Below the pieces are notes generated by a model. The model saw only the letters and a program-made list of their open reading frames with translations. It was not told the origin of the DNA and did not search any database. Both the position numbers and the translations under genes were made by a program. A stretch of DNA of 64,000 bases, taken from NCBI RefSeq assembly GCF_018143015.1, contig NC_054743.1:42612922-42676921 (forward strand), read 5' to 3'. Below are positions 16,055 to 62,092 of this stretch, piece by piece. Within the stretch, counting starts at the first letter, position 1. The number at the start of each line of letters is the position of its first letter. This stretch comes from Lytechinus variegatus. Taxonomy: Eukaryota > Echinodermata > Echinoidea > Temnopleuroida > Toxopneustidae.

Positions 16055-16120
16055 TATAACACACGCCCTCTACTTTCTAGATTATGATCACTATTTAAAC
16101 ACAAAATGCCACTTTTTTTT

Positions 16121-34632: not shown

Positions 34633-37372
34633 GTAGCCCAATGCAATTTCGTTCGTAATAAATAAATCCCTCTTTATTTGGAAGTTTGTGCCAGGTTTAT
34701 AATAATACCTCCGCCAATACGGCGGCCGCATACGGTGAGTCGAAAACAGCCGCTTTAACATTTGTTTTGTACTAGCTACATATTGGTTTGAATTGAAATG
34801 GATGAAACGACTGTTTTCGACTCGCCGTACGGCCGCCATAGAGCAAATGTGACCGAGGTATAAACAACTTCATTTTTTTTAGAAAATGACATTTCACTGA
34901 CTTTTTTTAGTCACGATACATTGTTGCTCGCATCAGACGTCGCAAATGAAGAATATATAATTATAATGACTCTTTAAAAAGAATCTTTGGAGTTTTCTCA
35001 AACCTTCACCAATATTTAATATGCTTTCGACTGTTTTTACAATAAACTTTTTTTCTCTTTAACTAAACCATGACAACGAGAATATCACCCATTCTTTCCA
35101 TTACATGCATACATGCTCCCATGATTTTTTTTCCTCCTTTTTTTTACCAGAATATATAATAGTTTGGATCCAGTTTCGATTCAACGTATTTTTCTGCACA
35201 TTTTGCTATGTTTGATGTTCAGTTGGATTTTAATGATTTTCTCAAAAAGAAACAAATATGTCGACACTGATGATGACAATGTCGCTGGTGGTGATATCAA
35301 CTCGTTTTCTGAACATCTGGATATGACATTTCACATACTTTTGGCATTATAAAGAATTCCTTAATTAAGGCCTGAAATCACCATTTAGTGTGTCAAAAGG
35401 GAATTTAATGATAGAGTGACAGAAATAAAACATCCCAATGTTTTATATAAGACACATCTTACAAATAGGGTATCTTCGCTCCTTTTAAATCTCTATTGAA
35501 AAAAAGGCAAAACATTCTCTTTTTAAGACCCCTACGACGATGCATTTTCGCCCGGAATACGTTTCTGACTCTTTTCCATCCAAAAGGTTTTACTACAAAA
35601 CGTAAATCATGTTGGTTATATTTCTCCATTTTGCCACACCTTCCAGAAGTTCAAGGGGATGTTGCCAAGGGAACATAACACACACAACACCCCCGGTTCT
35701 CATCCAGGGCAATATCCCCCCCCCCCAAATAAAATAAATAAATAATAATGAATAATAATAATAATAATAAATAAACAAGTAAATAAAATATATAAATATA
35801 TTATAAAAATAGAATGTAATATTATTAATGATGATAATGATAATGACAATATTCATTCTGCATCATCTGGGTCGAGAGTGGCAAAAGCTAACTGAATGTC
35901 TTCACTATACGATATGACTTGATCGTGTTAGCAAAATGTAGCATTTTACAAGCAGGGCATTCATGCTATAAATAAACTCTCGCCTGTCTGTAATATACAT
36001 CTATGCAACACATACTCCATAACTATGCCGTAACTATGTACATGATGTCGGCCTACATGACTTTGTATGCTAATGTAGCTACTGCACATAAACATGATAA
36101 GCAACCTTTTGAACGATGGACATAATCAGCAGACTCTGCAATAATGTACGAAGTAAATTATATGACTGTACATGTATATCATGCTGTTATAGCTATGTAT
36201 GTTAACAGAGATCAAAAACGTACTTTATTTTCTATTATTAATTTGCAGATGTCAGGAAAATACTCGGAGAAGATGAAAGGATGACAGACTCTGAACAACG
36301 TAAAGATGACAGATTTACAAATGACCAAAGCCTCGTAAGTTTTGTTTCGCTATACCTTTATATTATTTGAAATGACTTGTAATCCATTTTGTTCTAAAAG
36401 GGGTACTCCAGTCCGTCAAAATGACGGATAAAGAAAAATGAAAGAAACAAAACACTGACAATTTTATCAAAATCGGACAAGGAATAACAAAGCTATGGCA
36501 TTTCAAAAGTTGCATATTCCAGTGAAACGTCTTCTTAAATATCCAGAGAGAAATCTGATGGTGTCAAATATCCCCACCCAGTGGCGTACCTGGTATTTTC
36601 CACAGGGGGGGGCAAAACCGGTCAAAACATTTGACAAGCCCCCAAAACCCGAGAAAATATGACAAGCAAAAGAAAAAAAACGGAAAAAATTTGGCAAGCA
36701 ATAAAAAAGTCTTCAAGCTCATCAAGGGGGCGAAATAGGTATTCAAGCTCGTCAGGGGGGCAGGGATATGTCTTTTGTATGGGTTGTGACTCGTCAGGGG
36801 GGGGCAGACTGCCCCCTCTGCCCCCCCCCCTTAGGTGCGCTAGTGTCCCCACCTGTTCTTTTGTATTTTGCAATGTGAAATTTGGTTTATTCAAGTTTTT
36901 TCAAGAAGAAGAAGAAGAGAAAGAACAAGAAGCAGAAGAAGAACAAGAAGAAGAGAAAGAAGAAGAACAGGAAGAGGAGGAAGAATTTTCCTATGATATT
37001 AAAAGGTTATAACCTTTTAATATCATAGGAAAATGAAAAAGTGAGCTAATCTGGGAATAGTTATATCGAAACAAAATCCAATTTTCTTTTTTTCTGATCT
37101 TAGGTTATTAAATCCCAGTTATTCTGCTCTTTGCTTTTTATTTTGCTTCACTTTCCTAACTTTGTATTGTCAAAAACTAGCCAATTTCCGTTCCCTTTTG
37201 CATGTGGAAATATTATTTTCTTATCAATATTAGAAATGCTGAATAAAAATTTATTAAATCTATTAAAGGTCACGTTGGAATTTTTTTGTGTTAGGATTAT
37301 GAAATCAATAATGGGGAGGCAAAATGAAATTACTGATCGCCTTTCGAATTGCGTTTCTTCTATATATAAATA

Positions 37373-37418
<46 letters not shown>

Positions 37419-40303
37419 GAACTTTAGAAGTGCATTTAAACAGGAAAGTGACCGATTATATAGTAGAAAGAATGAACACCGATTTGTAAAAAAAAATAGC
37501 TATTAAGGCAACAGAAAGGTCACTCCTCTGCTGATCCGGTTGAAACTTCTTATCTGTATACTAACAATTAAAGGTAATTGAAACTTAAAGATAATTTGAC
37601 AAAGGGTATTCTTATCGAATCTAATCGGCGCTATGGTATTTTCCTGAAACCTTAAGATGGAACATCAGATCATATGTTTTATATGTGGGTATTAGAGTAA
37701 TAAATAGCACCTTTTACATAAGAATGTACATAGTGAAGTGGAAATCTGAGAATCAATATTTTCTGTTATTTTGTGGGGTTTGTTTGTTCCTTTAGATAAC
37801 TTTTCAATTCATGGAGACTATTTTTTTCCTGGTAATTTAGTACATTGATCGCTTAGAAACCTCCGTATTTAGCGCTCTACAAATGTTATAATTATTATTA
37901 CAACAAGTCGAATGCCTCTGGCCGTCTCACCTGCATCACACGATTCAATAGAGCAGCAGTGCTGACTTTGAAAACTACTATAAGATGTTCAGTGATACTT
38001 GGTTACTCTGATGTCCAAGTTTCATGAATTAGACCCATAAACTTTCAAAGTTATGATGGTAATTCAACTGATACCCCCAATTTGGCCAAAGTTCATTTAT
38101 TCGGCCAAAGTTCATTGACCCTAAATGACCTTTGAGGTCATGTGACATGAAACTCCGGCAGGATATTTAGTAGTACTCGATTAACCCTATGGCCAAATTT
38201 CATTAACTAGGTCTATATACTTCCTAAGATATGCTGTCATTTCAAAAACTTAACCTTCGGTTAAGATTTGGTGTTGACGCCGCCGCCGCCGTCGGAAAAG
38301 CGGCGCCTATAGTCTCACACTGCTATGCAGGTGAGGCAATTATATACTTCATAGTGATCCCTAAATTAAGTTTTGAATGTACTGTACATCTCCCAGTTAA
38401 ATGTTTGGATAGTCAATCGCTTTGCTGTCAAAATATCAAGATAATATTTTCCATCCATGATAATTCCATGTGATATGTTAATTGTTTAAGTTTGGAATCA
38501 AACTTTTATTCTTTTGTTTTGGAAAAAATAATGCAGGAAATCAGTACTCTTTGACAGTCAACCTGTCCGAAATGTCGAATCTACTCTCCTGCTCCTGCTA
38601 TCGCTCAATTCGCCAACTCAAGCCAGCCTTATCACGCTTATCTCGCCTATTCAAGCCTTCTACTCGGGCCTGTCTACTTCTCAGCTTTCGACTCCTTCTC
38701 GTTTAGTCCTTTTAATGACTGCACTCATTTTGAAAATAATACTCTACTTTCAAATCCCCATTATCTCGCCTTTCCATTTCATCTATCCGCTTTTCTCATA
38801 TTAGTCCTCCAAGAACTTTACACATGGTGTACAATAAACTTGTTATCTCGACACAGCCTATTTGATTAAACGCACTCTTAAGTGAAAAAAAATGCAGGAC
38901 CATACTAGGTGATTATCATTCCCCCTCCTGCCAGTGTAATAAGTCTGAGTTTCCCTTATTTATAATTGCTTTATTTTCTCTCCTTTAATCTGGGCCGACT
39001 ATGAGAAAAAAAGAAATGTGATATCTGAATATTCTTTATTAATGTGCTCAAAGTAGTTTGATTCAAACATGAATACATGCATTAATGACTTGGGTCTTCG
39101 AAATAAGAGTACGCATGCGCATGTCATATAACGTTCACGTTGGCACGAATGAATCAATACCTTCCAATTACCGGTACCCTTACATAGGCCTTAGGCTAAG
39201 ATCTATATTTGGATCCAATTTTTAAACAATTATCAAATTGCAATTAATTTCGCGCCCTGGATAGGGTAGTATGGGGCGTGGGATAAATTGCTGAAATACT
39301 GGACTGTCCCTTGATAGTGCCTGAGTGAAAGATGCTCCCCTATTTCAAATATAATTGCGAATGTCTTTGTCTTATTGGTTTTTCCCAGGCTGCCCTTTCA
39401 AGAAGCAAAGTCGAAGCAGATCGCCAACGCATATCTGTCCTTCAACAACGCAAGGCACGGTTAAAGGAACAGTGCGCCCTCATGAAGGAACACCATCAAG
39501 TCCGAGATGTAGCCCTAGATCCGCCAGAACAACTCATTGTCAACGAAGAGTATCGGATCATCTACTGCAACGTACCGAAAGTAGCCTGCACCAACTGGAA
39601 GACCATTTTACTGGAACTAGGGGGGTTTAGCGAATTCAATACTTCGAGAGAGGCACACCTTGGGGCTAATAAGAAAGGTCGACTCTATCTCGATTACCTA
39701 CACAACTACAATATCAGCCAGAGGCGATTTATGCTGCAGAACTACACGAAGTTCGTCTTCGTCAGGCACCCTTTCAATCGCGTTCTTTCTGCTTTCCGAG
39801 ACAAGCTTGCTCCAAACATTTCCGTCTTTTTCCGGAACGAAGATCGAAAGGGGACTTGGATCTCGCAGTACGGGCAGCGGATAATTGACCGTTACCGCGG
39901 TAAGGCTGAAGCTGATAGAGTCAACTCGAACTGGAAACAGCAATACGACCTCACCTTTACAGAGTTTATCCGGTTTTTGGTTGATCCTGGAATACAGTCG
40001 CACAACAAACACTGGGATGACATCCATTCTATATGCAAGCCTTGTGATATCGATTACGACGTCATCGGCAAATACGAGACGATGAGCGATGACGCAGACT
40101 TTGTTCTCAGACTTGCGAACATTGACCCCAAAATACAATTTCCTAAACCACATCCGTCACATGTGACGAATAGTTCGGACGGATCGCTGGCTGATACGGT
40201 CTATCAAGGTGTTCCTAAATCACTTATGTATAAACTGGCGATGCTGTATGCTGTCGATTTTAAATTGTTTGGGTACGACGCTGACCCGTATCTACAAATC
40301 TGA
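34512..40303 (+). CDS. Carbohydrate sulfotransferase, CHST8-14 (HNK-1/chondroitin 4-O) family
   Basis: Predicted type II Golgi enzyme that transfers sulfate from PAPS to a sugar hydroxyl on glycoproteins or glycosaminoglycans. Three exons (34512-34632, 36249-36334, 39389-40303) join in frame to give 373 residues, a normal length. Residues 7-27 form the signal anchor after a short basic tail (MPRKPH). Residues about 70-120 are a charged, possibly coiled stem. VPKVACTNWK at 131-140 is the 5'-phosphosulfate binding loop and VRHPFNRVLSAFRDK from 194 the 3'-phosphate site, both diagnostic of Sulfotransfer_2 proteins. CKPCDIDYDVIGKYET near 286 matches the C-terminal HYDLVGKYET-like motif of CHST11. 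Five N-glycosylation sequons lie after the anchor. No stop or frame break is seen. CHST11-like is the best guess; CHST8/9/10/12/13/14 are alternatives. Confidence 0.92.
34708..34858. mobile_element. TA-flanked MITE, CCTTGGTCACATTTG family, copy 2
   Basis: TA precedes 34708 and follows 34858. The right end reads AGCAAATGTGACCGAGG and the arms share TACGGCGAGTCGAAAACAG with copy 1 at 25141-25294. The left terminus has lost part of its sequence. It is inserted in sulfotransferase intron 1, 75 bp after the exon 1 donor. Confidence 0.75.
36249..36334 (+). CDS. Sulfotransferase exon 2: stem region
   Basis: After acceptor TTTGCAG the exon completes an Asp codon and reads VRKILGEDERMTDSEQRKDD then RFTNDQSL, ending at donor GTAAGT. 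The 86 bp enter in phase 1 and leave in phase 0, matching exons 1 and 3. The hydrophilic composition suits the lumenal stem. Confidence 0.8.
36397..36888. mobile_element. TTAA-type MITE (GGGGTACTCC family) interrupted by a hAT element
   Basis: AAAGGGGTACTCCAG at the left and the following ATCAAAATCGGACAAGGAAT match the relative at 49590-50134. After the hAT insertion at 36579-36845 the family sequence resumes as CCCCACCTGTTCTTTTGTAT, equivalent to CCCCACGTAATCTTTTGTAT in the relative. The far right half of the element is missing. Confidence 0.65.
36579..36845. mobile_element. hAT-type MITE with 8-bp target duplication
   Basis: Begins CAGTGGCGTACCT and ends AGGTGCGCTAGTG, inverse with few mismatches. 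TCCCCACC flanks both sides (36571-36578 and 36846-36853). CAGTGGCG termini and 8-bp duplications are typical of hAT transposons. The interior is G-rich/C-rich with ACAAGC motifs and encodes nothing. Confidence 0.85.
36900..36984. repeat. GAA/GAAGA-rich microsatellite
   Basis: Purine-only run built from GAAGAA, GAGAAAG and GAAGAG, encoding an artefactual Glu-rich frame. Confidence 0.9.
36985..37034. repeat. Perfect 50-bp palindrome
   Basis: ATTTTCCTATGATATTAAAA plus GGTT is followed by AT and then the exact inverse, 24-bp arms with a 2-bp centre. It abuts the purine microsatellite. Inside sulfotransferase intron 2. Confidence 0.95.
37374..37416. repeat. (TA)n microsatellite
   Basis: Uninterrupted alternating TA run of about 40 bases in sulfotransferase intron 2. 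Confidence 0.95.
37904..38318 (+). repeat. Dispersed complex repeat ending in a CCGCCGCCGTCGGAAAAG block, copy 1
   Basis: Same 5' part (GCCTCTGGCCGTCTCACC) and same 3' part (AAAACTTAACC, GTTAAGATT, then GACGCCGCCGCCGCCGTCGG and AAAAGCGGCGCCTA) as the longer copy at 50301-51270. The middle consists of units with ATGACCTTTGA-type and AAGTTTCATGAA-type segments; this copy has about two of them. No terminal inverted repeats and no coding frame. Confidence 0.7.
39389..40303 (+). CDS. Sulfotransferase exon 3: catalytic domain and stop
   Basis: Acceptor GTTTTTCCCAG precedes GCTGCCCTT; 304 codons and TGA end at 40303. The whole lumenal catalytic domain is in this single exon, as in several vertebrate CHST genes. 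It contains IIYCNVPKVACTNWK, FVFVRHPFNRVLSAF and the conserved KHWDDIHSICKPCDIDYD stretch near the C-terminus. The first in-frame ATG at 39332 lies in the intron and is not the start. Confidence 0.95.
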   Translation, partial: AALSRSKVEADRQRISVLQQRKARLKEQCALMKEHHQVRDVALDPPEQLIVNEEYRIIYCNVPKVACTNWKTILLELGGFSEFNTSREAHLGANKKGRLYLDYLHNYNISQRRFMLQNYTKFVFVRHPFNRVLSAFRDKLAPNISVFFRNEDRKGTWISQYGQRIIDRYRGKAEADRVNSNWKQQYDLTFTEFIRFLVDPGIQSHNKHWDDIHSICKPCDIDYDVIGKYETMSDDADFVLRLANIDPKIQFPKPHPSHVTNSSDGSLADTVYQGVPKSLMYKLAMLYAVDFKLFGYDADPYLQI

Positions 40304-46001: not shown

Positions 46002-46836
46002 CTGGAAAAAAATGAGAGTCCGATGAATGCTACAGTCATACCGAAGAAACTTATCCATATCTATAACGTTGTTTTCAATTAGATAGCAGCAATCATTTTG
46101 GGGTCAGTTCATTCGGTGTGACTGTGCATTGAAAACTGGAGAATGATAATATTTAAGTGACGAGATAACAAATGTGTTTTCTACTGTAGATGGTAAAATG
46201 TATCCGATATATTTTGTTTGCTTAACCATCCATAAAAAATATCTAAGTTTTTTGTCCCCCCCTCCCGTCGTTACATAAAAAATGTACCTGCCATAACCAG
46301 AGATAACATAGTAAATTGGCTCGACTTGAAGGCATATTCCTGAGAAGAATATAAAACATCTCATTCAATATCCATTACTAATTTGTAAAATAGTGCCTCG
46401 AGTGAGGTATGGCCGACCCAAGGAATTATGAATTGATTAATAGTCATATGCTGTACATCATTTCAGTGGATTATACATCCATATTGTAATATCCAGCTAG
46501 GGTTTAAGACTCGAGGTTAACTATATTTCATTGACGGTTGTTGTGCAATAATTAAAAAGATAATTTGACATGGAATTTTAGTTCAACGATTGGTTTCCTT
46601 AAAACTCTTTCTTTTTCACTTATATTTGTTTTGCGAACTGCATTAAAATTGTAAAAGCCGTAATTTGAAAGTAAAGTATTTTTTGTTCTTGAAATATATA
46701 TTGCAGGTTGTTGAAAAGCTGAATCTAATGGCTGCTAGATATGTTTATATAAATACTGTTAAACGAAATAATGATGGTCTCAGTTTTGAGGGAACTTTGC
46801 TGTACCCCTTTTCCAGGTGTCTCTCTAATAACGTAC
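46002..46836. other. Stretch where receptor C should carry its Cys-loop and M1-M2 exons
   Basis: Both strands were read for a Cys-loop (C, 13 residues, C), a vicinal Cys pair, GEK or an M1/M2 pattern, and none is present. A minus-strand piece near 46288-46340 with acceptor-like TTCTTCTCAG and donor-like CAG|GTACAT reads NMPSSRANLLCYLWLW; MPSS could be a faint trace of the M2-M3 loop, but this is not convincing. Confidence 0.5.
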
Positions 46837-46946
46837 TTCTCTTTTAGCTCGATATCCGACATCCAAACATCATCCATGCCAACTGTGACGTAATCAACAC
46901 CGTCATATTTTTCGGGGTTCCATATCACGTTCTCGTCTGTCCATAT
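46837..46946 (-). CDS. Receptor C exon 4 equivalent (110 bp)
   Basis: It encodes IWTDENVIWNPEKYDGVDYV and TVGMDDVWMSDIELKE, aligning without gaps to MWIDENLTWDPSEYGGVNIT and onward in receptor B. The size (110 bp) and phases (0 in, 2 out) are identical. The loop A motif is altered: W-M-S-D replaces W-x-P-D and the loop A Tyr is Lys. Acceptor AAATAG is weak; donor is GTACGT. Confidence 0.82.
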
Positions 46947-47050: not shown

Positions 47051-47220
47051 TGCTCTAAAAAAACGAAATGCTGATTTAGCTCTTAAAGAACGTGTATAGA
47101 GACTGCACTTCGGAGTGCTGATTTTTCCCGTTCAAGTTTGAACTAGACAAATCAGCACTCCGAAGTGCAGTCGCTATACACGCTCTATAAGAGCTAAATT
47201 AGCTCTTTGTTTTTTAGAGT
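47051..47220. repeat. Palindromic MITE-like repeat, copy 2
   Basis: Arms GACTGCACTTCGGAGTGCTG and CAGCACTCCGAAGTGCAGTC are perfect inverses around CGTTCAAGTTTGAAC. The outer parts (GCTCTAAAAAAACGAAATGC, and TTTGTTTTTTAGAGT) pair more loosely. Same core as 12155-12295. Confidence 0.75.
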
Positions 47221-48181: not shown

Positions 48182-48219
48182 ATCCCTTATGGAACAAACA
48201 CAGTGTTACCACAGTGTGT
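48182..48219 (+). repeat. Left terminal inverted repeat
   Basis: Thirty-eight bases identical to the inverse of 59695-59732, starting ATCCCTTATGG. Divergence begins sharply at 48220. Confidence 0.9.
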
Positions 48220-48330
48220 ACCACAGTGTGTAACACAGTGTGTACCACAGTGTGTACCACAGTGTGTACCACAGTGTGTAACACAGTGTGTACCACAGTG
48301 TGTTCACAGCGTGTACCACATGTGTTTAAT
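48196..48330. repeat. Left array I: 12-bp CACAGTGTGTAC units
   Basis: About nine to ten units alternating CCACAGTGTGTA and ACACAGTGTGTA. Both the plus frames that stay open through it (Thr/Val/Cys-rich, Gln/Cys/Val/Pro-rich) are products of the repeat. Confidence 0.9.
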
Positions 48331-48470
48331 ATATTATTTTGGGACGTGTGGTAACACTGTGTTTACAACACTGTGTAACACAGTGTTGCCACACAGTCGC
48401 CACACAGTCCGAAACACATATTAAACACACTGTGTACCACACGTTTATAACCACATAGTCCTTTACACTG

Positions 48471-48872
48471 TGGCATTCACCACATAGTCAACCACACTAT
48501 GACATACACCACATAGTCCACCACACTATGACATACACCACATAGTCCACCACACTATGACATCAACCACATAGTCCACCACACTATGACATATACCACA
48601 CAGTCCACCACACTATGACATATACCACAGAGTCCACCACACTATGACATGCACCACATAGTCCACCACACTATGACATATACCACATAGTCCACCACAC
48701 TATGACATATACCACATAGTCCACCACACTATGACATATACCACAGAGTCCACCACACTATGACATATACCACAGAGTCCACCACACTATGACATACACC
48801 ACATAGTCCACCACACTATGACATACACCACATAGTCCCCCACACTATGACATACACCACATAGTCCCCCAC
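48471..48872. repeat. Left array II: 29-bp units, about 13 copies
   Basis: Consensus CACATAGTCCACCACACTAT followed by GACATACAC. Thirteen copies keep ACTATGACA; the fourteenth is degenerate. Variation is limited to a few positions (ATAC/ACAC, CATAG/CAGAG). Each unit carries CATAGT and its inverse ACTATG, so single strands can pair within and between units. Confidence 0.95.
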
Positions 48873-49281
48873 ACTAAGGTGCTCATCTTACTGTGATGTC
48901 TACCACAGTCCACCACACGGACATTGACTACACAGTCCACCACACTGTGGTATGCATGTGCCACTAGCTCGTTTACCACATGCAGTCCACTACATACCCA
49001 TGCAGCACATACCATGTAGACCACTGCAACACAGGCCAACTGGAACGAAGCACAGTGTCCTGCAATCTTGACCACAAAAGTATACCATCATTGCCAATTA
49101 GTGCTGATCTCAATAGGAGTGGAAGCTAATAATAGTGTCACCAATTCAAATCAAATTTTAGAATATATCTTTCATCATTTTGCATACCCACTTGTAAAAA
49201 AAAAAAAAAAAATCAACACTAAAAACTTCCATCCTCCTGATCACAACAAAATTGATTTGAGAATTTGTCTGTTGTCACTGG

Positions 49282-49355
49282 CTATAGGTACTTGGGTGGT
49301 TGTATCATGGTAGACACTGTGCTTTGGTCCCAATCTGAAGAGTAGGGAGAGCAAT
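49282..49355 (-). CDS. Possible additional 3' exon of the Lys/Arg-rich gene
   Basis: An excellent acceptor (CTTGTGTCTTGTAG after a long pyrimidine tract) opens this exon. Joined in phase 1 to the 54397-54472 exon it would read CSPYSSDWDQSTVSTMIQPP then KYL and stop at 49282. Joined in phase 0 to a CAG|GTTTAA donor inside the 51816-51928 exon it would read IALPTLQIGTKAQCLP and stop at 49305. Either is possible; transcript data would be needed to choose. Confidence 0.35.
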
Positions 49356-49589
49356 CTACAAGACACAAGAAAATATAATTAGAAATAAAAAATGAAAAAA
49401 TTCATTTTGTTCAGTTTAATAAACAGTAATATAATAAAAGCAACATGAAAATAACTGGGTCATAAATACAAGCACTGTGAATACAAACATGAATTTTTCT
49501 CCTCGATTTTCACAAGTAAACATACGTTGTGGAATGAAATTGTTTGGGAAAACAAGCCTGGTATGAAATATTTCTTAAATGTAAACATA

Positions 49590-50134
49590 TTAACGGGGTA
49601 CTCCAGGCTGACATAATACAATTTTAACAAATAAAGTAAAAGGAGACAAATAAAATACTGCAAATTTCATCAAAATCTGACAAGGATGACAAAGTCATTA
49701 CATTTTTAACTTTTGCATTACTAGGGCAAAACAGTGCTATGCATGTCTTCATGAATATGCAATGAGCAAGCTGATGATATCCCCACGTAATCTTTTGTAT
49801 TTTATTTCAAAAAATTATATTTAGTCAAATTTTGTCACCAGATATAATAAAAAAATGGGATTGACAACTGATTTAGTTTGTAAGAAAATCATTGTGCCAA
49901 CTTATTTTGTTACAAGGGAGACATGTTGTGTACACATGTAGGAAAATGACATGACATCATTAGTCAACCTATTGCACATTCATGATGACTTGCATATGAC
50001 TATTTTCACAAAATAATGCTAAGCTTGAAATACTATAACTTCGCTATTTGCTATCAGATTTTCAGCGTTTTGCTCGGTGGATTTTACTATATTTATTTTG
50101 ATATGATTATTTTCAGCCTGGAGTACCCCTTTAA
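49590..50134. mobile_element. TTAA-type MITE, GGGGTACTCC family (intact copy)
   Basis: TTAACGGGGTACTCCAGGCT at the left and AGCCTGGAGTACCCCTTTAA at the right, TTAA at both edges. It shares inner phrases such as ATCAAAATCTGACAAGGATG with the TCCACCCC family, suggesting related non-autonomous families. Further family members are at 36397-36888 and, truncated, 63840-64000. Confidence 0.85.
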
Positions 50135-50300
50135 GGTATCTAACATTTATGAGTCTATATTCTGACAAATTTATCGTTGAGGTTGTTCTTTCATTCAAAT
50201 GCAAGTATCTTCATTCGAAACAAGACTTGCAAGGTTACAAGTGATGAAAACACCGAACTAAAATAACCTGTTTAAAAGAAAAGGTTACTTGAAAAAAAAA

Positions 50301-51270
50301 ACAAGTGGAACGCCTCTGACAGTCTCGCCTGTGTCACGCAATTCAATATAGCAACAATGCTGACTTTGAATAAAAAACAGTGATACTTGATTACCCTAAT
50401 GTTCAAGTTTACTTTCAAAGTTATGAAGACATTTCCAAAATTATTACCAACATAGTCAAAGTTCTTTGACGCTAAATGACATTTGACCTTAATCATTTGA
50501 CTAAAAACTAGTGCAAGACTATCAATGATACTTGATTACCCTTATATCCAAGTTTCATGAACCAGATCCATAAACTTTCAAAGTTATGACATTTAAAAAA
50601 ATATCTCGAGCATGCATGGTCACAGTTCATTGACCCTAAGTGACCTTTGACCTTAATCATGTGACCTAAAACTCATGCAAGATGATAAGTGAAACTTAAA
50701 TACTCATGTCCAATTTTCCTGAACTAGGTCGATAAAATTCCAAAGTTAAGATGACATCTCAAAAACTTTGGTTAAGATTTTGATAACCAAACATGGTCAA
50801 ATTTTATTGACCATAAATGACCATTGGCCTTGACAATGTGACCTGAAACTCATTGTCAGTGGTACTTGATTACCCTTATGTTCAAGTTCATGAAATAGGA
50901 TCATGATGATGACACTTAAAAAAATTAACAGTTCAGATTTCAGTGCTGTGACCTTTGACTTTGATCATGTGACCTGACAGGCTGACACTAATGTAAGATT
51001 ATCAGCAACTTTTGTACAAGTTTCATAAAATAGGCCCTTATATTTTTAAAGTTATGACATAAAAAAAAAATTAGACCCTAAATGACCTTGATCATGCAAC
51101 CTGGACACTCATGCAAGATGGTCAGTGATACTTAGTTACACTTATGTCCAAGTTTCATGAACTAGGCCCATATACTTCCTAAGTTATGACGACATTTCAA
51201 AAACTTAACCTTAGTTAAGATTTCAATGTTGACGACGACGCCGCCGTAGTCGGAAAAGCAACGCCTACAC
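50301..51270 (+). repeat. Dispersed complex repeat, copy 2 (expanded middle)
   Basis: Starts like the copy at 37904 (ACAAGTGGAACGCCTCTGAC) and ends GACGACGACGCCGCCGTAGT then CGGAAAAGCAACGCC. The middle holds about five units of roughly 150-190 bp, each with TGACCTTTGACC-, CATGTGACCT-, AAGTTTCATGAA- and AAAGTTATGA-like phrases, against about two in the other copy. Confidence 0.75.
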
Positions 51271-51815
51271 ATGTAGTAAAGCAAATCCCTACCATCACAG
51301 AGAGTTGTGAAATTTCGAAACAGGAAGAAGTAACCAACATTTATTTTTCAAAAATAAGAACACTTTGCATATATTTTGCCTTTTCACACCTATAGACAAA
51401 TATCAGAAAAATATGAACAAGAGCCAAAAAATGTCCACAAATCTCTTGCATGAAGTGCATATACTAGCGTCCATATAGCTGCATATAAGTATTCCTTTGT
51501 ATTAGTTGGAACTTGGAAACAGTATCAAACGGAAGGTACATGGCAAGAAAATGATTTGTCATAGTATAAATATAAAAATATATCAATCTGAGTTTGATGA
51601 ATAGCACAAGGTGATAAAGCAGGAGTTGGAATGTCATGATAAATTTTGAAAGCACACACTATATAAACCTGAGTTGGCTGTATTAGCAGACATGTCATAA
51701 TACATGAAAGACATTTTCGTGTAATATATACCCATGATCAGAATAAAATGGGTTTTTTAATGACTTGTATGAGGCAATATTAAGGCTTATTTCCAAACAA
51801 AAAAAGGTATCACAG

Positions 51816-51928
51816 TTAAACCTGCTTTTCTGCACGTCTTCGAGATGAACGGACATCTTTCAGCTTCTGGCCCATGCGTGCACGTACTTGGCCCATGGAA
51901 GTGCAGGGAAATTTGCTTGTTGTGTGTG
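51816..51928 (-). CDS. Lys/Arg-rich gene, candidate last exon
   Basis: Acceptor TTTTCTTATTTTCAG precedes CACACACAACAAGC. It reads HTTSKFPCTSMGQVRARMGQ then KLKDVRSSRRRAEKQV and TAA. The acceptor and first bases of the exon lie in a 58-bp tandem duplication, so two equivalent acceptors exist 58 bp apart. Confidence 0.5.
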
Positions 51929-54900
51929 CTGAAAATAAGAAAATGAAAGGACACAAAAATTGGCAAGATCATGCTTGTTGTGTGTGCTGAAAATAAGAAA
52001 ATGAAAGGACACAAAATTTGGAAAGATCATGTAGATGAAATTTCTCGTAAGATATCCTGTGTCATAGGAATATTGAGTAGAATTAGATATATTTTACCAA
52101 TGTCAGTTCTCCTGAAATTATATAATGCTATGATCTTGCCGCAGTTGAGTTATTGTAACATCATATGGGGAAATTGTCCAAAATACTTATTACAGAGGTT
52201 ATATTTGTTGCAGAAACGTGCTATTAGAATAATAACAAAGTCATCATACCTTGCCCATACAAACATAATTTTTTAAAATCTCAATATATTAACAATATTT
52301 GACCTGAATGTGTACTGCGTTGCAATATTTATGTATCAGTATTTTAAAAATGTTTTGCCTGAATGTTTTAATGATTTATTTATTTTTCAAAGGGCAGTCA
52401 ATAAATATGCAACAAGAAACTATAATGATCTATACTTGCCAAAGTACAAATATGATTTTTCTCGTTCCATTATTAATTATAGAGGACCTATTATTTGGAA
52501 TAATTTGAAATCAGAACAGAAATCTTATCAGTCAATGTCTCTTTTTAAAAGACAATACAAATCATATCTTATTAATCAATCGTTCATTAAATAGACTTTC
52601 AGTTGCCTGTTTTTTTTTTTTTTTTTTTTTTTTTCCCTTTTGTATTTGGTGTATACTTTATTTATTTATTGTTATGTTATGTTCGGGGACTAGCCTTGAT
52701 AGGCCTTTGGCCTTTGCTGGTCCCCTGCATCCGGTACTTGTATGTTGTGCTTTCATTTGTTGTAATTGTTATCTCTAAAATTGTATTTTGCTTTTTTATC
52801 CCTTTGCCTCTTTATAATACTTGTAAATATTGTTTTATCATGTTAAATGTATGATTTTATCTTGGATGCAATAAAAGGCCATATCGGCCAATCAATCAAT
52901 CAAAAAAACTGGCTCAAAGTCTCAAACTTTTATCAAAGACTCTACATCATTTATAAATATTAATTAAAGCCAAGTCAAGTTCCGTCTGTTTGTGACTGTT
53001 GGTTACTCAGCTGCAGTGGAGTATCTAAGAGTCACAAACATAACAAAAAACCATGCATACCCATGAAACAGGATTATAATATTAGGGGCAGATAAGTTAA
53101 AGCAAGAAAATCAAGATTTCAGGCTCGGTAATCTTATTTCTATAGTCCTGCTTGATTGAAAATATCTTATGAAATGACAAGGAAGTGACTTAAAGGAAAT
53201 TAAGTTCTTAAACTGGTTGATTGTCTAAGCCTTTGACTCTAATTTCTAATTTCTTTGGTCTGCCGTTCTGGAAGAAATTGTACTGGTGACAGGCAGCATC
53301 GTTGTAAAATGTAAAATGACAAGACATTTGTGAAGATCAATCACTTACTTAAAAAATTAAAATGTTTTCTATGGTTACGTAGATTCAAATCAAAGTCGGT
53401 GTCCTTTTCCTCCTTTTTCTGTTCGTTTGTTTTTGTTTCCACATCAAAACTTATTTTCACGGTAGATTACCATTTGGAGAGACTGTGCTATTCTACATGT
53501 AGTACATGTAGTTTCTCTTTCAGGGAGATTCACCCTAACCCTCCGCCTTGAAATTATTGACGAGCTTGGTAATATGAGAAATTACAGGGCATCTTCCTAT
53601 TTACAGTAATTGTGATATTCTGAATTCATTTGTAGATTCACGCAGAGACAATCATTCTTGGCAAAATACACAAGAAAATGTAAAAGCTATCAAAGGGGAA
53701 GTTCACCCTGATGAATAATTGGTTGTAATAAGAAGCAAAAAAAAATTGAGAAATATATCAGTGAAGGTTTGATAAATATCATTAAAGAACAGAGATTTTT
53801 TTTAAATATGATTTTATGACATCACAGACGATATGAATTGCCCAAAATGCCATTTTTTCAAAAATTGAAAGTGATTTCTTTATTTTTGCGGTGGATATAT
53901 CATCAGACACATCATTTCATAGCCCCTTCTACTAGAATTTACCATAACGCAAATCTGTGTGTGAGACAGTGTTATTTGTGAATGTTGATATGCCAGGGCT
54001 AGCAATGGAAATTCATCCGTTTAGAGTGCCAATATCCTACAATGATATACCAAGAAAGTCAGAAAAAAACTTTAACATTTAAAAAAATCACCAATTTAAT
54101 GAAAAAGCATGTCCGGAAAACATAACTCTCATCTCATATAGATGTATGTCCTGAAAGAGCATCTACTCCATCATAATTTCAGATACCATTTTTATGTGGT
54201 ATATGTTTAACCTTCGATAATTAAGAGGTATTCTTTGTTGTGATGTAAAATTCTATTTGCACCAAAAGCATGAATGCAATGCTCTGGAGAAGATACTCTT
54301 TCTGGACATATGAGAATTTTGTTTTCTGGTAATGATTTTTCATTTAATTTAATTGGCCACAGAATCTTGCCGTAAATAATAAACTTTTAAACTGACCTTC
54401 ATGGTTCCGCTGGTCTTCAGTCTTTTTCTTCTTTAGAAGCTCTGCCATAGCAGATCTGTCAGCTTTCCCAACCTGCAACCAAAAATGGAAATAAAATATG
54501 AACACATATGGAATATGTTTAGAATTTTTAAAAATTAAAATTTAATTGAGCCCCCCCCCCCCCCGCTCAACATTTTTCAAGACCATTCAGCTGCGATTTT
54601 TTGGGGTGACCGCGCCGCGCCACTCACATTTAAGTCTCGCATATCTTCTGAGTTCAAATTTGCGACACCTGGGTACGCGGTCATGTGCAAATCCAATGCA
54701 ATTCTGTATCTAGACTAGGAATCCAGACAAAATTCATAAGTGTATCATTATTTTTAGTTTTTCTAATGAATTTTCTTTTATTGAAGTAGTACCACCAATA
54801 CTTTCCAATTCCATCAATTTTTTTTTCAAGTAGAAATTTAAGAGCAATTTTTTAATCACCACTGGCAGCGATATCAAGTTATGTAGAAGTCATTTTTTTT

Positions 54901-57900
54901 GCAAATCACAGAATAAAGTCTGGCCTGCTTCAGGTAAACACTTATCACTTTGGAATTTCCTGGCTAGTAGGCTTCAAAATTTCCTGATCCATGCACGTCT
55001 TTAAAATTTAAGTTGAATGTAAAGTTTCAACGTACCCTCTTTCTCACATCTTTTTTTTGAGGTTGAAGCCTCATCCTCCATGTCCTCATCTGTGGCATCA
55101 GACTCATCCATAGCCTCATCTACTCTGGTTGCGGTGTTTAGGAACTCCTTCTCTTTCTTTAGTACATCAGCTTTTTTTCTGTAAGGGACAGGCACATTAA
55201 GGACAGACATAAATAATCAGAGTAATTTCAAAGAGCCATTTATGAAATGCATTGTAAAAATGGAGTTTTAGCATTATTAGATTTATTACTACAGAGTACA
55301 GACAAGTTATCAAATCAGAATTCAGACACCAGTTTTTAAGTTATAGACGTAAATAATTTTATTCTGTACACACAAACTATTTTGAGTTGTAGACATATTT
55401 TTCAGTAGATCTAAATAACATAATTATTATTTAAAAACTAGTAAGAATCTTTCACATCATTAAATTTGCCCCCAAATTGTTAATTAGCAGATGTAATGCT
55501 AATCCAGTCTAGCCAGGAGGCTTCTAGAGAGTAAAAATCATTTACTAACATAACTTATTCTCACACGAAGCCAGGGCTTCTATTGTATACATGTGCATGT
55601 AGGCAGCCAAAACCTGAAACTTTTGCCCCCGAGATTTCTACTTTCTCTCTAAAAAGATCTAGCCTTAAATCATGTACCTGGGATACAACTTCATTTCCGA
55701 CATTTCTATGCTATGGATTTTATTTTTAGACAAGAATTCATTAAAAAAAATGACAAAAAAATCATGAAAAGAAGAGACTTGCCCGATGTTTACACCGCCA
55801 TCTTGTTTTCTATTGTTCTTCACCCACGATACGGACGCTTGAGTCGAGTAACGTGGTGAGAGTAGCCAGGCGGCTTCTAGAGAGTAAAAATCATTTACTA
55901 ACGTAAGGTTACTCTCATACGAAGCCAGGTCTTCCTTCTCATAGACGCGTGCGTCGGGTAACGTTGGCGAAGAACAATAGGAAGTAAGATCGGGCAATTC
56001 TCTTCCGTCTTTTCACAATATTTCTCTCATTTTTTTGATGAATTCTTGTTAAAAAATAACGAGAGCGTAGAAATGTCGGAAATGAAGTTTTTTCAATATA
56101 CATGATTTAGGGCTAGATCTTTTCTATTAAGGAAAGTAGAAATCTCGGGGGTGAAAGTTTCAGGTTTTGGCTTCCGTCGTGTGGGTCAATGAGAAGGAAG
56201 ACCTGGCTTCGGATGAGAGTAACCTTACGTTAGTAACTGATTTTTACTCTCTAGAACTAGAAGCCGCCTGGCTACAATGTAGGTGAGAGTAAGGCCGTGT
56301 TTATGCTTCCACTTTTCAAGCCAGAATCAGCGTTTCCAAACGTGATTAGTCCAAAACACTGTTGCGTCCATGCTTACTTTCAGTTAAACGCTGTTTCAAA
56401 ACGCCAATCGTAAACTCACAAAAATGTGCATTTGTAAACGTCGTTTGACCAGAATCAGGCTTTCTGGGGAAGTATAAACAGAACCACGATCGTAAACGTG
56501 TTTAAATGACGTCATTTGGTACATGCTTCCGGTGAGATGAAAATCCGCGGACAAATACAGTCGTATTGCTCCTTGTTATCTCTACGTAAAAACAATAATC
56601 GGAAACCCCCCCCCCCCCAAAAAAAAAGGCGCGCCCAATTTGACCTCGCTTTACAAGATCATGATTTGCTATGAAAAGTTAAGCATAAACAGCACTCCCA
56701 GAACCACGTTTACGATCGGCGTTTTGAATCGACGTTTGAAATCGCTGATTCTGTCCTCGCAATGGAAGCATAAACACACCCTAAGATACGTTAGTATTAG
56801 TCTTGAGGACACAATGATGATGATTTTTTTTATCATATACTTCTTCATCATTGACGTCTTGACACTCTCTCCATAGTGTCTTAAGTGAAGGACTAAAACA
56901 AAGATGGATTTCCCTAGAAAATCCATCTTTTTAAACCAAAATCACAAGAATTCTATTCATTCTTACACCTTCCTACGCCTAATGCGTAGGAAGTTTTAAA
57001 TACGTGGTTATTATATAAAAATATAAAACATGAAGATTTCTTACCTAACTGATGCCGCGTAGACCCCCCCCCCCCCTTCCACATGTAAACAACGGAAATA
57101 CAATACAATAGCGTCGACCCTTGAACCGCTTATGTATGACGTACTTCCGGAAAGCAATCCCGTCTTAACGAACAATTTAGAGATAAAAATTCTTATTAAA
57201 CAAATATTAAAATTTATTTTTTGATTATAAATAATTCATATTAATATATATAAATTATTTATGATCACGAAATAAATTTTAATATTTGTTGAATAAGAAT
57301 TTTTATCTCTAATTTCTATCTCTAAATTTTATATTTTTATATAATAATATTTAACACCTTCCTACGCATTAGGCGTAGGAAGGTGTAAGAATGAATAGAA
57401 TTAATAGAATTCTTGTGATTTTGGTTTAAAAAGATGGATTTTCTAGGGAAATCCATCTTTGTTTTGGTCCTTCGCTTAAGACACTATGGAGAGAGTGTCA
57501 AGACGTCAATGATGAAGAAGTAGATGACATATCTAAAAAAATCATCATCATTGACATTGCTTCCTCAAGACTCCGTTAGTATAGGCCTAGTATTAGTAAA
57601 TGATTTTTTACTCTTTAGAAGCCTCCTGGCTAGTAGAAAAGATGGAAAGAGCTTACGGCCGTGTTTATGTCGCCATCTTGATTTCTTTGTCTTTCGCTTG
57701 GCGACAGCACGCAAATCGCGTGATTCGTTATTTTATGAATTCTTCTTTAAAAATGAAATCAGTATCGCAGAAATGTTACACCCGGTAATCTACTTCACTT
57801 GGAAAATAAGTTGAACCGCATGACAGGTAGGCCTACATGTTTTACATGTTTTAGGGCTAGATTTAAAAATTAGAGGGAAAGTAGAAATCTCGGGGGCGAA

Positions 57901-58283
57901 AGTTTCAGGTTTTGTACCAGTGGCAGTACCGTACGTGGGTGAATAGCTCGTGATCCCAGGCGTCAGTGGGGAGTAACCCTACGACTGTGTAGAGCTAAAT
58001 TCATAGTAACCCAGGCCAGGGAACTCCCGCCCGCGTAGCGGGCGGGCAGGAGTTCCTTGGCCTGGGTTAAAATCATGACTTTCATTTCAGTTTCAGACGC
58101 CGCGCCTCCAGGCTAGTCATGCTAGTCGAGCACCACATAGCCTATAGATCTATATACATACGGACACGGTTCGACAATTACCCCTGGACAAAGGGAGAGC
58201 ATAAATAATTACATATTAGGTACAAATCAGGATATAATAATGTATTATTTACCACTGGCCACTAACACCTTGGCCTTCCACAT
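51816..58283 (-). CDS. Small Lys/Arg-rich protein gene of unknown family inside the 11.55-kb element
   Basis: Minus-strand exons 58253-58283 (candidate first exon), 55036-55178, 54397-54472 and 51816-51928 (stop at 51816). The last three give KKADVLKKEKEFLNTATRVD, an acidic DESDATDEDMEDEAS patch, then GKADRSAMAELLKKKKTEDQ and MGQVRARMGQKLKDVRSSRR to a basic C-terminus. An acidic patch followed by basic stretches resembles nucleolar or chromatin proteins, but I recognise no family. The 54397 and 51816 exons join in phase (G|CA) with good splice sites. The 55036 exon joins only if its run of eight A is seven, so one base is in doubt there. The first exon does not connect in phase without an intermediate exon. 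It could be a captured host gene or an element gene. Confidence 0.5.
51914..52029. repeat. 58-bp tandem duplication spanning a splice acceptor and the LINE start
   Basis: TGCTTGTTGTGTGTGCTGAA and the following 38 bases occur twice in tandem at 58-bp spacing, differing at very few positions (AAAAATTGGCAAG against AAAATTTGGAAAG). The duplicated unit contains the minus-strand acceptor of the gene's last exon and the plus-strand 5' breakpoint of the LINE. Confidence 0.95.
52005..52903 (+). mobile_element. 5'-truncated non-LTR retrotransposon (CR1/jockey-like LINE) with 3' UTR
   Basis: It encodes the C-terminal end of a LINE ORF2: IWKDHVDEISRKISCVIGIL, LYNAMILPQLSYCNIIWGNC and YLLQKRAIRIITKSSYLAHT, the post-catalytic thumb region of the reverse transcriptase. 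The frame breaks after 52276 and resumes as YQYFKNVLPECFNDLFIFQR and IINYRGPIIWNNLKSEQK to a stop near 52594. A run of about 24 T, a 3' UTR with GATAGGCCTTTGGCC, AATAAAAGG and a terminal (CAAT)n tail follow. 5' truncation and one frame break make it dead. It lies antisense in an intron of the Lys/Arg-rich gene. Confidence 0.85.
53693..53960. repeat. Fragment of a dispersed repeat beginning GGGGAAGTTCACCCTGAT
   Basis: The left end has the form of a MITE terminus and is followed by the TTTTATGACATCACAGACGA type of interior. No matching right terminus was found, so this is probably a truncated copy. Confidence 0.35.
54397..54472 (-). CDS. Lys/Arg-rich gene, internal exon
   Basis: Acceptor GGTTGCAG, donor GTCAGT. 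It reads VGKADRSAMAELLKKKKTED then QRNHE plus one base, phase 0 in and 1 out. The helical Lys-rich stretch fits a nucleic-acid-binding or coiled segment. Confidence 0.6.
55036..55178 (-). CDS. Lys/Arg-rich gene, internal exon with acidic patch
   Basis: Acceptor TGTCCCTTACAG, donor GTACGT. It reads KKADVLKKEKEFLNTATRVD then EAMDESDATDEDMEDEASTS. In an eight-A run near 55051-55058 the frame must shift by one to give KDVRKR and join the next exon in phase 0; as written it would run into a stop just after the junction. Homopolymer miscount or a real inactivating change are both possible. Confidence 0.55.
55505..56285. repeat. Large palindrome, outer unit
   Basis: Left arm (about 55520-55830: TTCTAGAGAGTAAAAATCAT, GCCCCCGAGATTTCTACTTT, GCCATCTTGTTTTC) faces an inverse right arm (about 55968-56280: AAGTAGAAATCTCGGGGGTG, GATTTTTACTCTCTAGAA). 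The centre (55830-55965) contains a third copy of the AGAGTAAAAATCATTTACTA edge. A fourth, single-arm copy is at 57590-57935. Confidence 0.8.
56292..56780. mobile_element. MITE with GGCCGTGTTTATGCTTCC ends
   Basis: GGCCGTGTTTATGCTTCC at the left and GGAAGCATAAACACACC at the right. The interior repeats AAACG-type words (AACGTGTTTA, AAACGTCGTTT, CACGTTTACGATCG). TAAG occurs at both edges, a possible target duplication. Confidence 0.75.
56785..57580. repeat. Large palindrome, middle unit, with hairpins in each arm
   Basis: Arms of about 205 bp (56785-56992 and 57352-57580) are near-perfect inverses: GACGTCTTGACACTCTCTCC against GGAGAGAGTGTCAAGACGTC, and so on. Each arm also contains its own short hairpins, CCTTCCTACGCCTAATGCGT-AGG and AGATGGATTTCCCTAG-AAAATCCATCT. 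The spacer carries a 13-C run and the inner palindrome at 57178-57312. Confidence 0.9.
57178..57312. repeat. Large palindrome, inner unit
   Basis: AGAGATAAAAATTCTTATTA and AACAAATATTAAAATTTATT at the left are mirrored by AATAAATTTTAATATTTGTT and GAATAAGAATTTTTATCTCT at the right, centred on an AT-only core near 57242. Confidence 0.9.
57590..57935. repeat. Single-arm copy of the outer palindrome unit
   Basis: TAGTAAATGATTTTTTACTC and TTTAGAAGCCTCCTGGCTAG at its left, GGGCTAGATTTAAAAATTAG and GAAAGTAGAAATCTCGGGGG at its right, in the orientation of the right arm of 55505-56285. Confidence 0.75.
58007..58069. repeat. GC-rich 63-bp hairpin
   Basis: TAACCCAGGCCAGGGAACTC and CCGCCCGC face GCGGGCGG and AGTTCCTTGGCCTGGGTTA, a loop of a few bases and one small bulge. 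It lies just left of the candidate first exon of the Lys/Arg-rich gene. Confidence 0.9.
58253..58283 (-). CDS. Candidate first coding exon of the Lys/Arg-rich gene
   Basis: ATG at 58283 followed by MWKAKVLVAS and one base to a donor-like G|GTAAAT. The sequence upstream (to about 58400) is GC- and CpG-richer than its surroundings and open in the same frame, as expected near a promoter. The link to the downstream exons is unproven, since the phases differ and an extra exon would be required. Confidence 0.3.
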
Positions 58284-58974
58284 CCCAGCCAATGTTCCGG
58301 CCGTTTCTCTGCGGGGTTCCGGACTCCACCAGGCCCTTATCTCAAGTTCGGGTCCACCAAGTTGACCAACATCTTTTTGTTACAAAATCGCTAGAAGTAA
58401 CCGTTCCTTGTTTCCACCCAGTGTTGTTCTAAAACCCACATGGTTGATATCCTTATCAATTCAAGAAGATTAAGACAAAGTGCAGTAAGATCAGATTCTA
58501 ACGGGCGTAAATATTGGATGAAGTGATAAACTGTAACGGGCGTCGGTGAGCTTTGAACATAGAGTTATATAAACCTAACGTATTTAACTCTATGGCTTTG
58601 AATTTGAAACGCACATGTACACGAGCGCGCTAGCGGTATGTAGCATGCCTCGCCGAAAATAGATTTCCGAGGCCGAGATTTACCGAAGAGTTCCGGATAT
58701 CTAGTATAGATCTATAACTCTATTGAACGTTATAGCCTTTACTGATAGTTTATCCATTGCGATGATGATCTTAAAAGAAAATAAAAAAAAATCATCAAAT
58801 ATCAAATTACCGGCAAAATTTCAGTGTAAATTATAAACTAAATGGAGATTGTATTGGGAATAGTGCATCAAACAATTTTTCAAGTTTAGTACTCCTCCCT
58901 GCTCCCCTCCCCCCCCCCTGACGAGCTTGAAGACCCTTTTTTGCTTGTTAATTTTTTTTCGGGTACGATTGAAG

Positions 58975-59694
58975 AACTTATTGTGGTAACACTGTGTTTG
59001 TTACCCAACTATGTGGGCAATTATGTGATTAACAATGTGATCTGAAGTCTAACACTGTGAATACATAGTTAGTCAACTATGTGAACACACTGTGGTAACA
59101 CTGTGTTTGTTACCCAACTATGTGAGCAATTATGTGATTAACTATGTGATCTGAAGTCTAACACTGTGTCCACATAGTTTACACATAGTCAACTATGTGA
59201 ACACATTGTGGTAACACTGTGTTTGTTACCCAACTATGTGGGCAATTATGTGATTAACTATGTCATCTGAGTCTCACACTGTGACCACATAGTTTACACA
59301 TAGTCAACTATGTGAACACACTGTGGCAACACTGTGTTTGTTGCCAAACTATGTGGGCAATTATGATTAACTATGTGATCTGCAGTCTAACACTGTGACC
59401 ACATAGTTTACACATAGTCAACTATGTGAACACACTGTGGTAACACTGTGTTTGTTACCCAACTATGTGGGCAATTATGTGATTAACTATGTGATCTGAA
59501 GTCTCACACTGTGACCACATAGTTAACACATAGTTTACACATAGTCAACTATGTGAACACACTGTGGTAACACTGTGTTTCTTACCCAACTATGTGGGCC
59601 ATTATGTGATTAACTATGTGATCTGAAGTCTCACACTGTGACAACACTGTGACCACATAGTTAACACATAGTTTACACATAGTCAACTATGTGA
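58975..59694. repeat. Right subterminal array, six units of about 110-140 bp
   Basis: Each unit contains TGTGGTAACACTGTGTTTGT, AACTATGTGGGCAATTATGT, GTGATCTGAAGTCT and CACATAGTTTACACATAGTC in this order. Units differ by small insertions, mainly extra copies of CACATAGT or CACTGTGA words. The first phrase equals the inner part of the terminal repeat, so the terminal repeat is in effect the last unit of the array. Confidence 0.95.
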
Positions 59695-59732
59695 ACACAC
59701 TGTGGTAACACTGTGTTTGTTCCATAAGGGAT
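59695..59732 (-). repeat. Right terminal inverted repeat
   Basis: Exact inverse of 48182-48219, ending TGTTCCATAAGGGAT. Confidence 0.9.
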
Positions 59733-62092
59733 CCTCTGTATTTAATGCATATTATTTAAAACGAGTGAAACAACTTTTTTAAGGCTCGTTATTTACGCTC
59801 ACCGCCGCAATTTCTCCCATAACACTCCCTTGAAAGATGATTCTTTTTCTTCCTACTATGGAAAATTTGCTCGTTCGCTTCGCTCACTCGCATTTGGACA
59901 CTAAATGCAATCCAATGGTGTATGTCACAGCAAGTCTATTGCAATGTAACCATCACTGAATAGTCTTTCAAGTGAAATATGGTAGTATATTATGCACGCA
60001 GTTTTATACACCTGTATATATAATTACACACCATTTGAAAGAGGTTAGGGGCAACATTCTTTCTTCCACCTACTGAAAATTTGCTCGCTCGCTATTCTCA
60101 TTCGCCACATCCAATTATCACACCTCGTGAAAGACGATTGTGGTCAGCGTGTCTACCAAACACTGAAAATGTACTCGCTCGCTTCGCTCGCTCGCATTTG
60201 GATATCAACTGTAGTTCAGTAATTTATAACGCAGCAAATTCATTACTATAGCCATTGAAAAAAATAAATCATGAGACACCTTTAACAGAACGATAAAAGG
60301 ATTGTGTACACGGTTGTATACCCCGTAAACATAGCATTAGGTGAGGGGGGGGGGGTGTCCCCCAAATTTTGAATTTTCAGGTCAATATATTGCTTACCCC
60401 CCCCCCCCCCCCACCCCCTGCTCGGACCGGATTAACGCCAGTGCTGCAAGGAAAATAGAATAAAAGAATGAAGGCTAAGGATGATACATTATTCTTGAGG
60501 CAGATCGAGTCAAGCCAATCCTGTCACAATCTTCATAATCTAATATTTTTGCTGCATACTTCAGACTAGAGGGTTAGAAATAAAACAAAGGTTTCGACGG
60601 GGATTAAAAGTTCGGTATAATTTCTTTGTTTCGTTTCTTTTTTTTTACTTCTTCGAGTTAATTTACTTTAAGTCAATTCCTGTGAGCAGAATATCTAAGA
60701 GCAACATTAAACTTTGACACGATCTATGACATTGCCTACTGTGATAAAATAATCTGAATCTTGGATTAAGTGCCCATCAAGACTTTAACAACAACTAAAC
60801 TCTAAAAAATATACCGGTTAAAAAAAATTAAAGAGGCATTTTCTAAATATCCTTGTCCAATGTTGCACACAACGTAGTGCTGTAATTACCTTCTACGACG
60901 GTGGAGTATTCATATCAAAAGATTGTGGATTGCTTTATTTGTCAACGAATTTGTTAATTCTACACACCAAAACCAAATTTGAACATTATAACTTTTCAGT
61001 TTGATTGAGTTGTTTAGATGCACACTCTCATTTGAAGCCCATAAATAAAATTGTATGAGCTGGTTCAAATGTGTAGCTTACAACTCCTTTTTAAACAAAC
61101 TTACATGCACAATGAAATAGGATTTATTTTTAACAACTGTCGATTCACAATTCAACCAACTTTGGGGTTGATTTACGGAAAATATCTGATAGAGCATGGA
61201 AAAATGCCCAAGAAATGGCTTTATACGGGTTAAAGTCTAATTGAATTTCGACTGTTTACTTGGTCACCCTTCCCCAGTACCTTCTACCATTATGGGTATG
61301 ATATTGCACCCTTGAAGGGGGGTCAACTTCGATGTCTTACATGGGCGCCACATGGCTATCCACCACTACTGATATCCTTCCCTGTACGTATAGGTGTAGC
61401 CATTTTCATAACGATAATATACATTGATGATGGCGATATTATAATAATGCTGACGTACAGAATCATTACTATTAATAGCCTTTACTGTTAGAAAATTTCT
61501 ACTTAAAAAAAAATCCCGCAGCAGAGTCTTGAGAACACCTGTTATCTTACTGCACTGTGCACATGCATTTGTGTGGAATTACAGATAATAGTTATTTGGT
61601 GTATGTAACCTTACAAATTCTTAAAACAGACCTGTTCTGTAAAATTCAATAAAAATTGTATAAAATCTTTCCTGTTTTAACAAGTTACAGAATGATTTGG
61701 TTAATTCTTTCTGTAAAATCTGTTTTTTTCTTCTTCTGTAAAATCTTCTGTTTTTTTCTAACAGTTCCTTTTATCATTGTTTTTAAGGATGTTATTGGTA
61801 TTGTATACGAAAGGGTTCTTGGTATTATTCAGACAAAGGGGTCGGTCATGGGTAATATTTAGACAGAGAGGATACCCAAGCCACTGGAAGAGGGGTCAAG
61901 ACAGTGCTGAGTACTGAGGACAATCCCCATTCGGATGATGTTAAACACGACCTACCGCGTACGCCTAAACTACAATCACTTGTATGAAATATTGGTAGAT
62001 TAATGATAATCATGAGCAATGGCCAAAATTGAGCTAAATAATGAAGGATTTCATTCAATAAACTACCGAATACAGCGGGGATCTATACTTAC
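59733..62092. other. Remainder of receptor C long intron
   Basis: No exon recognised. Around 59860-60200 the phrase CTCGCTTCGCTCNCTCGCAT recurs at about 300-bp spacing, an old tandem repeat. Poly-G/poly-C blocks lie near 60350-60415. Exon 2 and 3 equivalents of receptor C were searched for here and not found. Confidence 0.4.

Follow-up and report, generated by a model that had tools for sequence, protein, structure and literature searches.

What could have placed two perfectly matched ends, inverted and 11.5 kb apart, in a sea urchin chromosome, each adjoining a tandem array of its own, and did the DNA between them ever move as one unit? The question is raised by a 64,000-nucleotide stretch of Lytechinus variegatus DNA (RefSeq assembly GCF_018143015.1, contig NC_054743.1, positions 42,612,922 to 42,676,921 of the forward strand), referred to here as the window; all coordinates below are positions within it. 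The block at 48184-59730 is probably one copy of a non-autonomous cut-and-paste DNA transposon with terminal inverted repeats (TIRs), whose arrays would serve as secondary transposase-binding sites. An element with arrayed subterminal sites had been proposed in the initial annotation, and of the readings considered it is the one best supported by the anatomy of the block, in which none of the 17 longest interior frames matches a Pfam transposase; from this anatomy we infer mobility and binding.

The two ends carry the argument. Positions 48182-48219 and 59695-59732 are identical in inverted orientation over exactly 38 of 38 bases, which bears out, to the base, the perfect 38-bp ends claimed at the block edges, and the flanks beyond them agree at 16 of 60 bases. 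When all perfect inverted matches separated by 1 kb or more are ranked over the whole window, with microsatellites excluded, this pair is the longest, against longest pairs of 15-17 bp in each of 20 dinucleotide-shuffled windows. The next-longest pairs in the window (27, 27 and 24 bp) are copies, in the right array, of the inner part of the end. At the left end this inner part spans 27 bp (48193-48219) and is indeed the core word of the right array, and because this core recurs in the array and is then followed by a different sequence, each end can be described as a terminus of 11 bp attached to a single array core. The outer 11-mer, ATCCCTTATGG, is confined to the two ends within the window when one mismatch is allowed, a result that is uninformative by itself, as at least two matches occur in 38 of 100 shuffles; allowing up to two mismatches adds one further site for the 12-mer CCCTTATGGAAC, at 36391-36402. 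Without the outermost AT, the TIRs are 36 bp long (38 bp with it) and lie at 48184-48219 on the plus strand and 59695-59730 on the minus strand. Sharp-bordered TIRs, the order-level feature of cut-and-paste TIR DNA transposons, are thus present; the structure is real, and it is very likely a pair of transposon ends. The exact end is absent from viral contigs (searched as an 18-mer) and prokaryote genome contigs (as a 20-mer), as expected for animal DNA.

Each end runs straight into a tandem array, as had been claimed. On the left, 12-bp units of CACAGTGTGTAC (48199-48325, plus strand) begin from the shared core; a degenerate stretch separates them from 29-bp units (48450-48876, plus strand) that hold nine intact CATAGT-N7-ACTATG dyads. 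The right array (58976-59721, minus strand) consists of units of about 116 bp, each opening with the 27-bp core, and holds CATAGT-N2-ACTATG palindromes; Tandem Repeats Finder reports a unit of 116 bp over 58980-59721. Six internal copies of the core, all inverted, lie at 58976, 59085, 59201, 59316, 59430 and 59557, with 3, 0, 1, 1, 0 and 1 mismatches, respectively. The right end at 59695 is the seventh copy, and the successive distances are 109, 116, 115, 114, 127 and 138 bp. The core is followed by ACCC in five of the internal copies and by GCCA in one, whereas CCATAAGGGAT follows it at the end.

The two arrays were also said to differ in unit length yet to be built of the same words, and the counts agree. 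The left array holds 11 copies of the half-site CACATAGT and the right array 12, with none in the interior or the rest of the window; its complement, ACTATGTG, occurs 16 times in the right array and nowhere else. CACAGTG is found 10 times in the left array, never in the right, once in the interior and three times in the rest of the window, and its complement CACTGTG 4, 19, 3 and 3 times, so that the orientation of this word is largely mirrored between the arrays, as expected for mirrored ends. In 200 shuffles of each array, the mean counts of four 7-mers were 0.09-1.43. The CATAGT...ACTATG dyads number nine in the left array, always with a spacing of 7, and 13 in the right, with spacings of 2 (five dyads), 13 (five), 24 (two) and 6 (one). 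The remaining three parts of the window contain none, and 500 shuffles per array yielded means of 0.022 (left) and 0.014 (right) and never more than one. The arrays further have 12-mers in common, 38 when compared in inverted orientation and 8 when compared directly, against means of 0.2 and 0.5 for some 300 pairs of stretches drawn at random from the window. Because single random pairs reach 14 inverted and 62 direct 12-mers, it is the inverted sharing alone that stands out. Vocabulary and arrangement are therefore common to both arrays, but spacing and unit are not.

With respect to the borders of the element, target duplications were sought at lengths of 2-12 bp and offsets of -4 to +5, with both ends shifted alike. 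The single flanking match is AT, at 48182-48183 and 59731-59732, a candidate that is weak on its own. If these outermost two bases are a target duplication, as they may be, the element proper lies at 48184-59730, beginning with CCCTTATGG. No duplication of 3-12 bp was found at these offsets; such lengths are typical of elements of the Mutator, P, hAT, piggyBac, Harbinger and Transib types.

The interior of the block looks like host DNA, being made up of repeats, a piece resembling a long interspersed nuclear element (LINE) and minus-strand exons, and 1344 of its 10049 bases match repeats found in other parts of the window. That no transposase is visible, as the initial annotation had it, agrees with a Pfam scan of the 17 interior frames of at least 70 amino acids, none of which exceeds a curated cut-off and none of which matches a transposase, THAP or YqaJ domain; the 47 listed frames of 50-69 amino acids were not scanned whole. 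This counts as moderate evidence, because Pfam also missed the LINE-like piece and a transposase that is decayed or divided into many small exons would escape such a scan. Podovirus_Gp16 (E 0.072) and APOBEC4_like (E 0.03), matched below cut-off by other interior frames, are taken as chance.

In the mechanism proposed here, the transposase would be supplied from another place in the genome and would recognize the terminus and the neighbouring 27-bp core together. The arrays of 27-bp core and CACATAGT half-sites may act as secondary binding sites, which would raise the recognition of the ends for a large cargo; the anatomy is as expected for a transposase that binds the core at the terminus and additional copies of it. 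The cargo would be host-like DNA (dispersed repeats, the LINE-like piece and a few exons), brought in through capture or through nested insertions at a later time. A bolder proposal, which is possible but doubtful, is that the ends define an unnamed group of animal DNA transposons characterized by CCCTTATGG termini, an AT duplication, a terminal sequence multiplied into end-specific arrays, and a polarized multi-site transpososome with a capacity of over 10 kb, host exons among it. Among the matches listed from the openly licensed literature, taken as titles and the starts of abstracts, there was no account of this element or of one with CCCTTATGG ends. If more copies confirm it, the block would provide a natural case of secondary transposase sites amplified differently at the two ends, useful for understanding how the number and spacing of sites govern end recognition and the size of the cargo, and how transposon ends seed satellites. 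With one copy to go by, the find is modest.

Several observations weigh against a transposon. A single copy of the block is seen, within a 64-kb window, and the joined flanks have no match across the junction elsewhere in that window, that is, no empty site. The AT duplication is weak, a 2-base match over ten offsets being easily due to chance; moreover, AT is its own reverse complement, and the inverted repeat alone could therefore yield it. The two arrays are unlike in unit and length, and both their eight direct 12-mers and their 45 inverted 8-mers in common fall inside the ranges of random pairs (maxima of 62 and 50). Neither a transposase nor a binding protein is known for the block. Galileo, which according to the cited portion of PMC3688188 has extra transposase sites within its repeats, offers a limited analogy, because in the same portion the site is placed in the first two of four repeats only, and binding by the Foldback and Phantom repeats is called untested.

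A rival explanation is that two small repeats, both carrying arrays and belonging to one family, were inserted independently in opposite orientation around ordinary DNA, the 11.5-kb block never having moved as a unit. The interior, with its matches to window repeats, is like ordinary host DNA, the arrays are unlike in units and lengths, and any member of the array family could share the inner part of the ends, the core word sitting in the array. However, ATCCCTTATGG, with up to one mismatch, is limited to the two outer edges, facing each other; therefore, there is no second terminus at the inner edge of either array, although each independent insertion would need a second end unless that end differs in sequence. 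AT at both outer edges speaks against this explanation as well, and it is considered unlikely. Even less support is given to a local satellite that expanded and became inverted, its 38-bp identity held by gene conversion and without any transposition. The same short words do build both arrays, but the outer 11 bp are non-array sequence located exactly at both outer borders, and such an origin is very improbable.

The block might also be an autonomous element in decay, most likely one of the PHIS group and similar to ISL2EU, with transposase exons too degraded or too short to recognize. ISL2EU belongs to the PHIS superfamily; the portion of PMC4482050 cited here describes a 2-bp AT duplication, an A|AT|T context and ends that usually start with GG, and gives the AT duplication as a hallmark. 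According to the cited part of PMC10045372, PHIS relatives make either no duplication or one of 1-4 bp. AT is present at both ends of the block, a weak likeness of 2 bp, and minus-strand exons of an unnamed family lie inside; in contrast, the ends begin with CCC instead of GG and the context is C-AT-C instead of A|AT|T. Neither the DDE/THAP transposase of ISL2EU nor the YqaJ protein, both found in most autonomous copies, was matched by any of the 17 scanned frames, which argues against a decayed autonomous copy within the limits of the scan given above, while a non-autonomous copy would lack both anyway. An origin by decay is accordingly rated improbable, and a non-autonomous transposon remains the preferred reading of the block. 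Such a transposon may be a distant PHIS relative, because the range of duplications stated for that group accommodates 2 bp.

The interior of the block contains several further features. A nested repeat of about 0.5 kb (49590-50134), which has relatives elsewhere in the window, is flanked by TTAA and has inverted ends of GGGGTACTCCAGGCTGA, both read from the sequence. It is followed by a dispersed, internally repeated element (50300-51267) with relatives at 37902-38309. The segment at 51947-52895 (plus strand), which has no Pfam match, is presumably the 3' piece of a LINE, judging from protein words and an AATC tail. A 58-bp tandem duplication (51914-52031) lies at the 5' edge of this piece, and its first copy holds the acceptor of the last exon described below. 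Farther to the right, 55510-57914 comprises several nested inverted repeats of foldback-like appearance, among them one at 56833-57527 with 131-bp arms of 97% complementarity around a further palindrome at 57174-57315.

The block had been described as carrying a gene, and a two-exon 3' end on the minus strand agrees with this in part. A last exon (51816-51928), belonging to a gene or to a fragment of one and having an AG acceptor and a stop, is joined in frame by an internal exon (54397-54472) bounded by AG and GT. A further exon-like open segment with AG and GT borders (55036-55178, minus strand) has no direct in-frame join to 54397-54472; therefore, an intervening exon is missing, the gene is broken, or the segment is no exon. 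The last-exon peptide has no Pfam match above cut-off, the best being Sec10_N (E 0.062). The joined exon peptide, a query with imperfect junctions, matches Sec10_N (E 0.05) and PhaP_Bmeg (E 0.14) below cut-off and gives one match in PDB, with an E value of 1.2.

Outside the block, exons of neurotransmitter-gated channel type lie at 7495-7761 (E 5.5e-17) and 6040-6450 (E 8.6e-9) and a single-frame sulfotransferase at 39329-40303 (Pfam Sulfotransfer_2, E 1.9e-51), all in keeping with animal DNA. The initial annotation had placed the block in an intron of a receptor gene. This position is unsupported, because the receptor-like exon on the left, a minus-strand frame at 46725-46946 resembling a channel ligand domain (E 1.1e-4), scores 22.2 bits against a Pfam cut-off of 26, and the sole frame scanned on the right, 61846-62082, has no Pfam match. 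A hairpin with 78-bp arms, 87% complementary and 2 bp apart, lies about 1 kb to the left of the element (47058-47215), and degenerate repeats rich in GCTCGCTTCGCTCGC lie immediately to its right (59846-60202). The window also contains a tRNA gene at 23323-23394 (Rfam, 60.9 bits) adjoining AT and TG microsatellites, and a large inverted repeat at 15231-16059, with 304-bp arms that are 94% complementary, 221 bp between them and a second nested pair, which looks like a foldback insertion or a miniature inverted-repeat transposable element.

Comparison with known transposons separates the block from several groups. CACAGTG is the heptamer of recombination signal sequences, and Transib and RAG-like elements have it at their very end together with a 5-bp duplication; the first CACAGTG of the block is at 48199, 17 bp inside 48182, and no 5-bp duplication is present. 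The TTAA duplication of piggyBac and Kolobok is absent from the block ends, the TTAA-flanked repeat being nested inside, and the ends are symmetric without the CTRR 3' end of a Helitron, as is directly apparent from their bases. The TU elements of Strongylocentrotus are likewise built of short tandem repeats, but their target duplication is 8 bp long and the arrays at their two ends match. The duplication of about 7-8 bp made by the P superfamily, to which Galileo belongs, was not found, nor did any of the 17 interior frames match a P-type transposase with a THAP domain, which a non-autonomous copy would lack in any case.

The closest likeness is to elements whose tandem repeats adjoin their termini, as in Galileo and the Foldback-like Tetris. 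In Tetris, as far as the cited text of PMC4079207 describes it, 37 bp are common to the terminal domain and the tandem repeats, there is no apparent coding capacity, and target duplications are 8-10 bp. The arrays of Galileo and Tetris are part of long matching inverted repeats, whereas the two arrays of the block differ. For the Muta families of Aedes aegypti, the cited excerpt of PMC5225508 reports subterminal tandem repeats of 9-15 bp in 10 of 12 long-TIR families and Mutator-like non-autonomous copies that carry host gene fragments, two points of likeness to the block. The target duplications of these families are 8-9 bp; the block has none of 3-12 bp and matched no Mutator-like transposase. 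The duplications of 8-10 bp characteristic of Mutator-like and Foldback elements, including Muta and Tetris, are thus absent. By its anatomy, the block could work like Galileo, Tetris and the Mutator-like elements of Aedes, yet the tests made file it under none of them. Because arrayed secondary sites are already known, it seems to vary an existing design, distinguished by an unusual asymmetry between its two ends, rather than to be a new kind of element.

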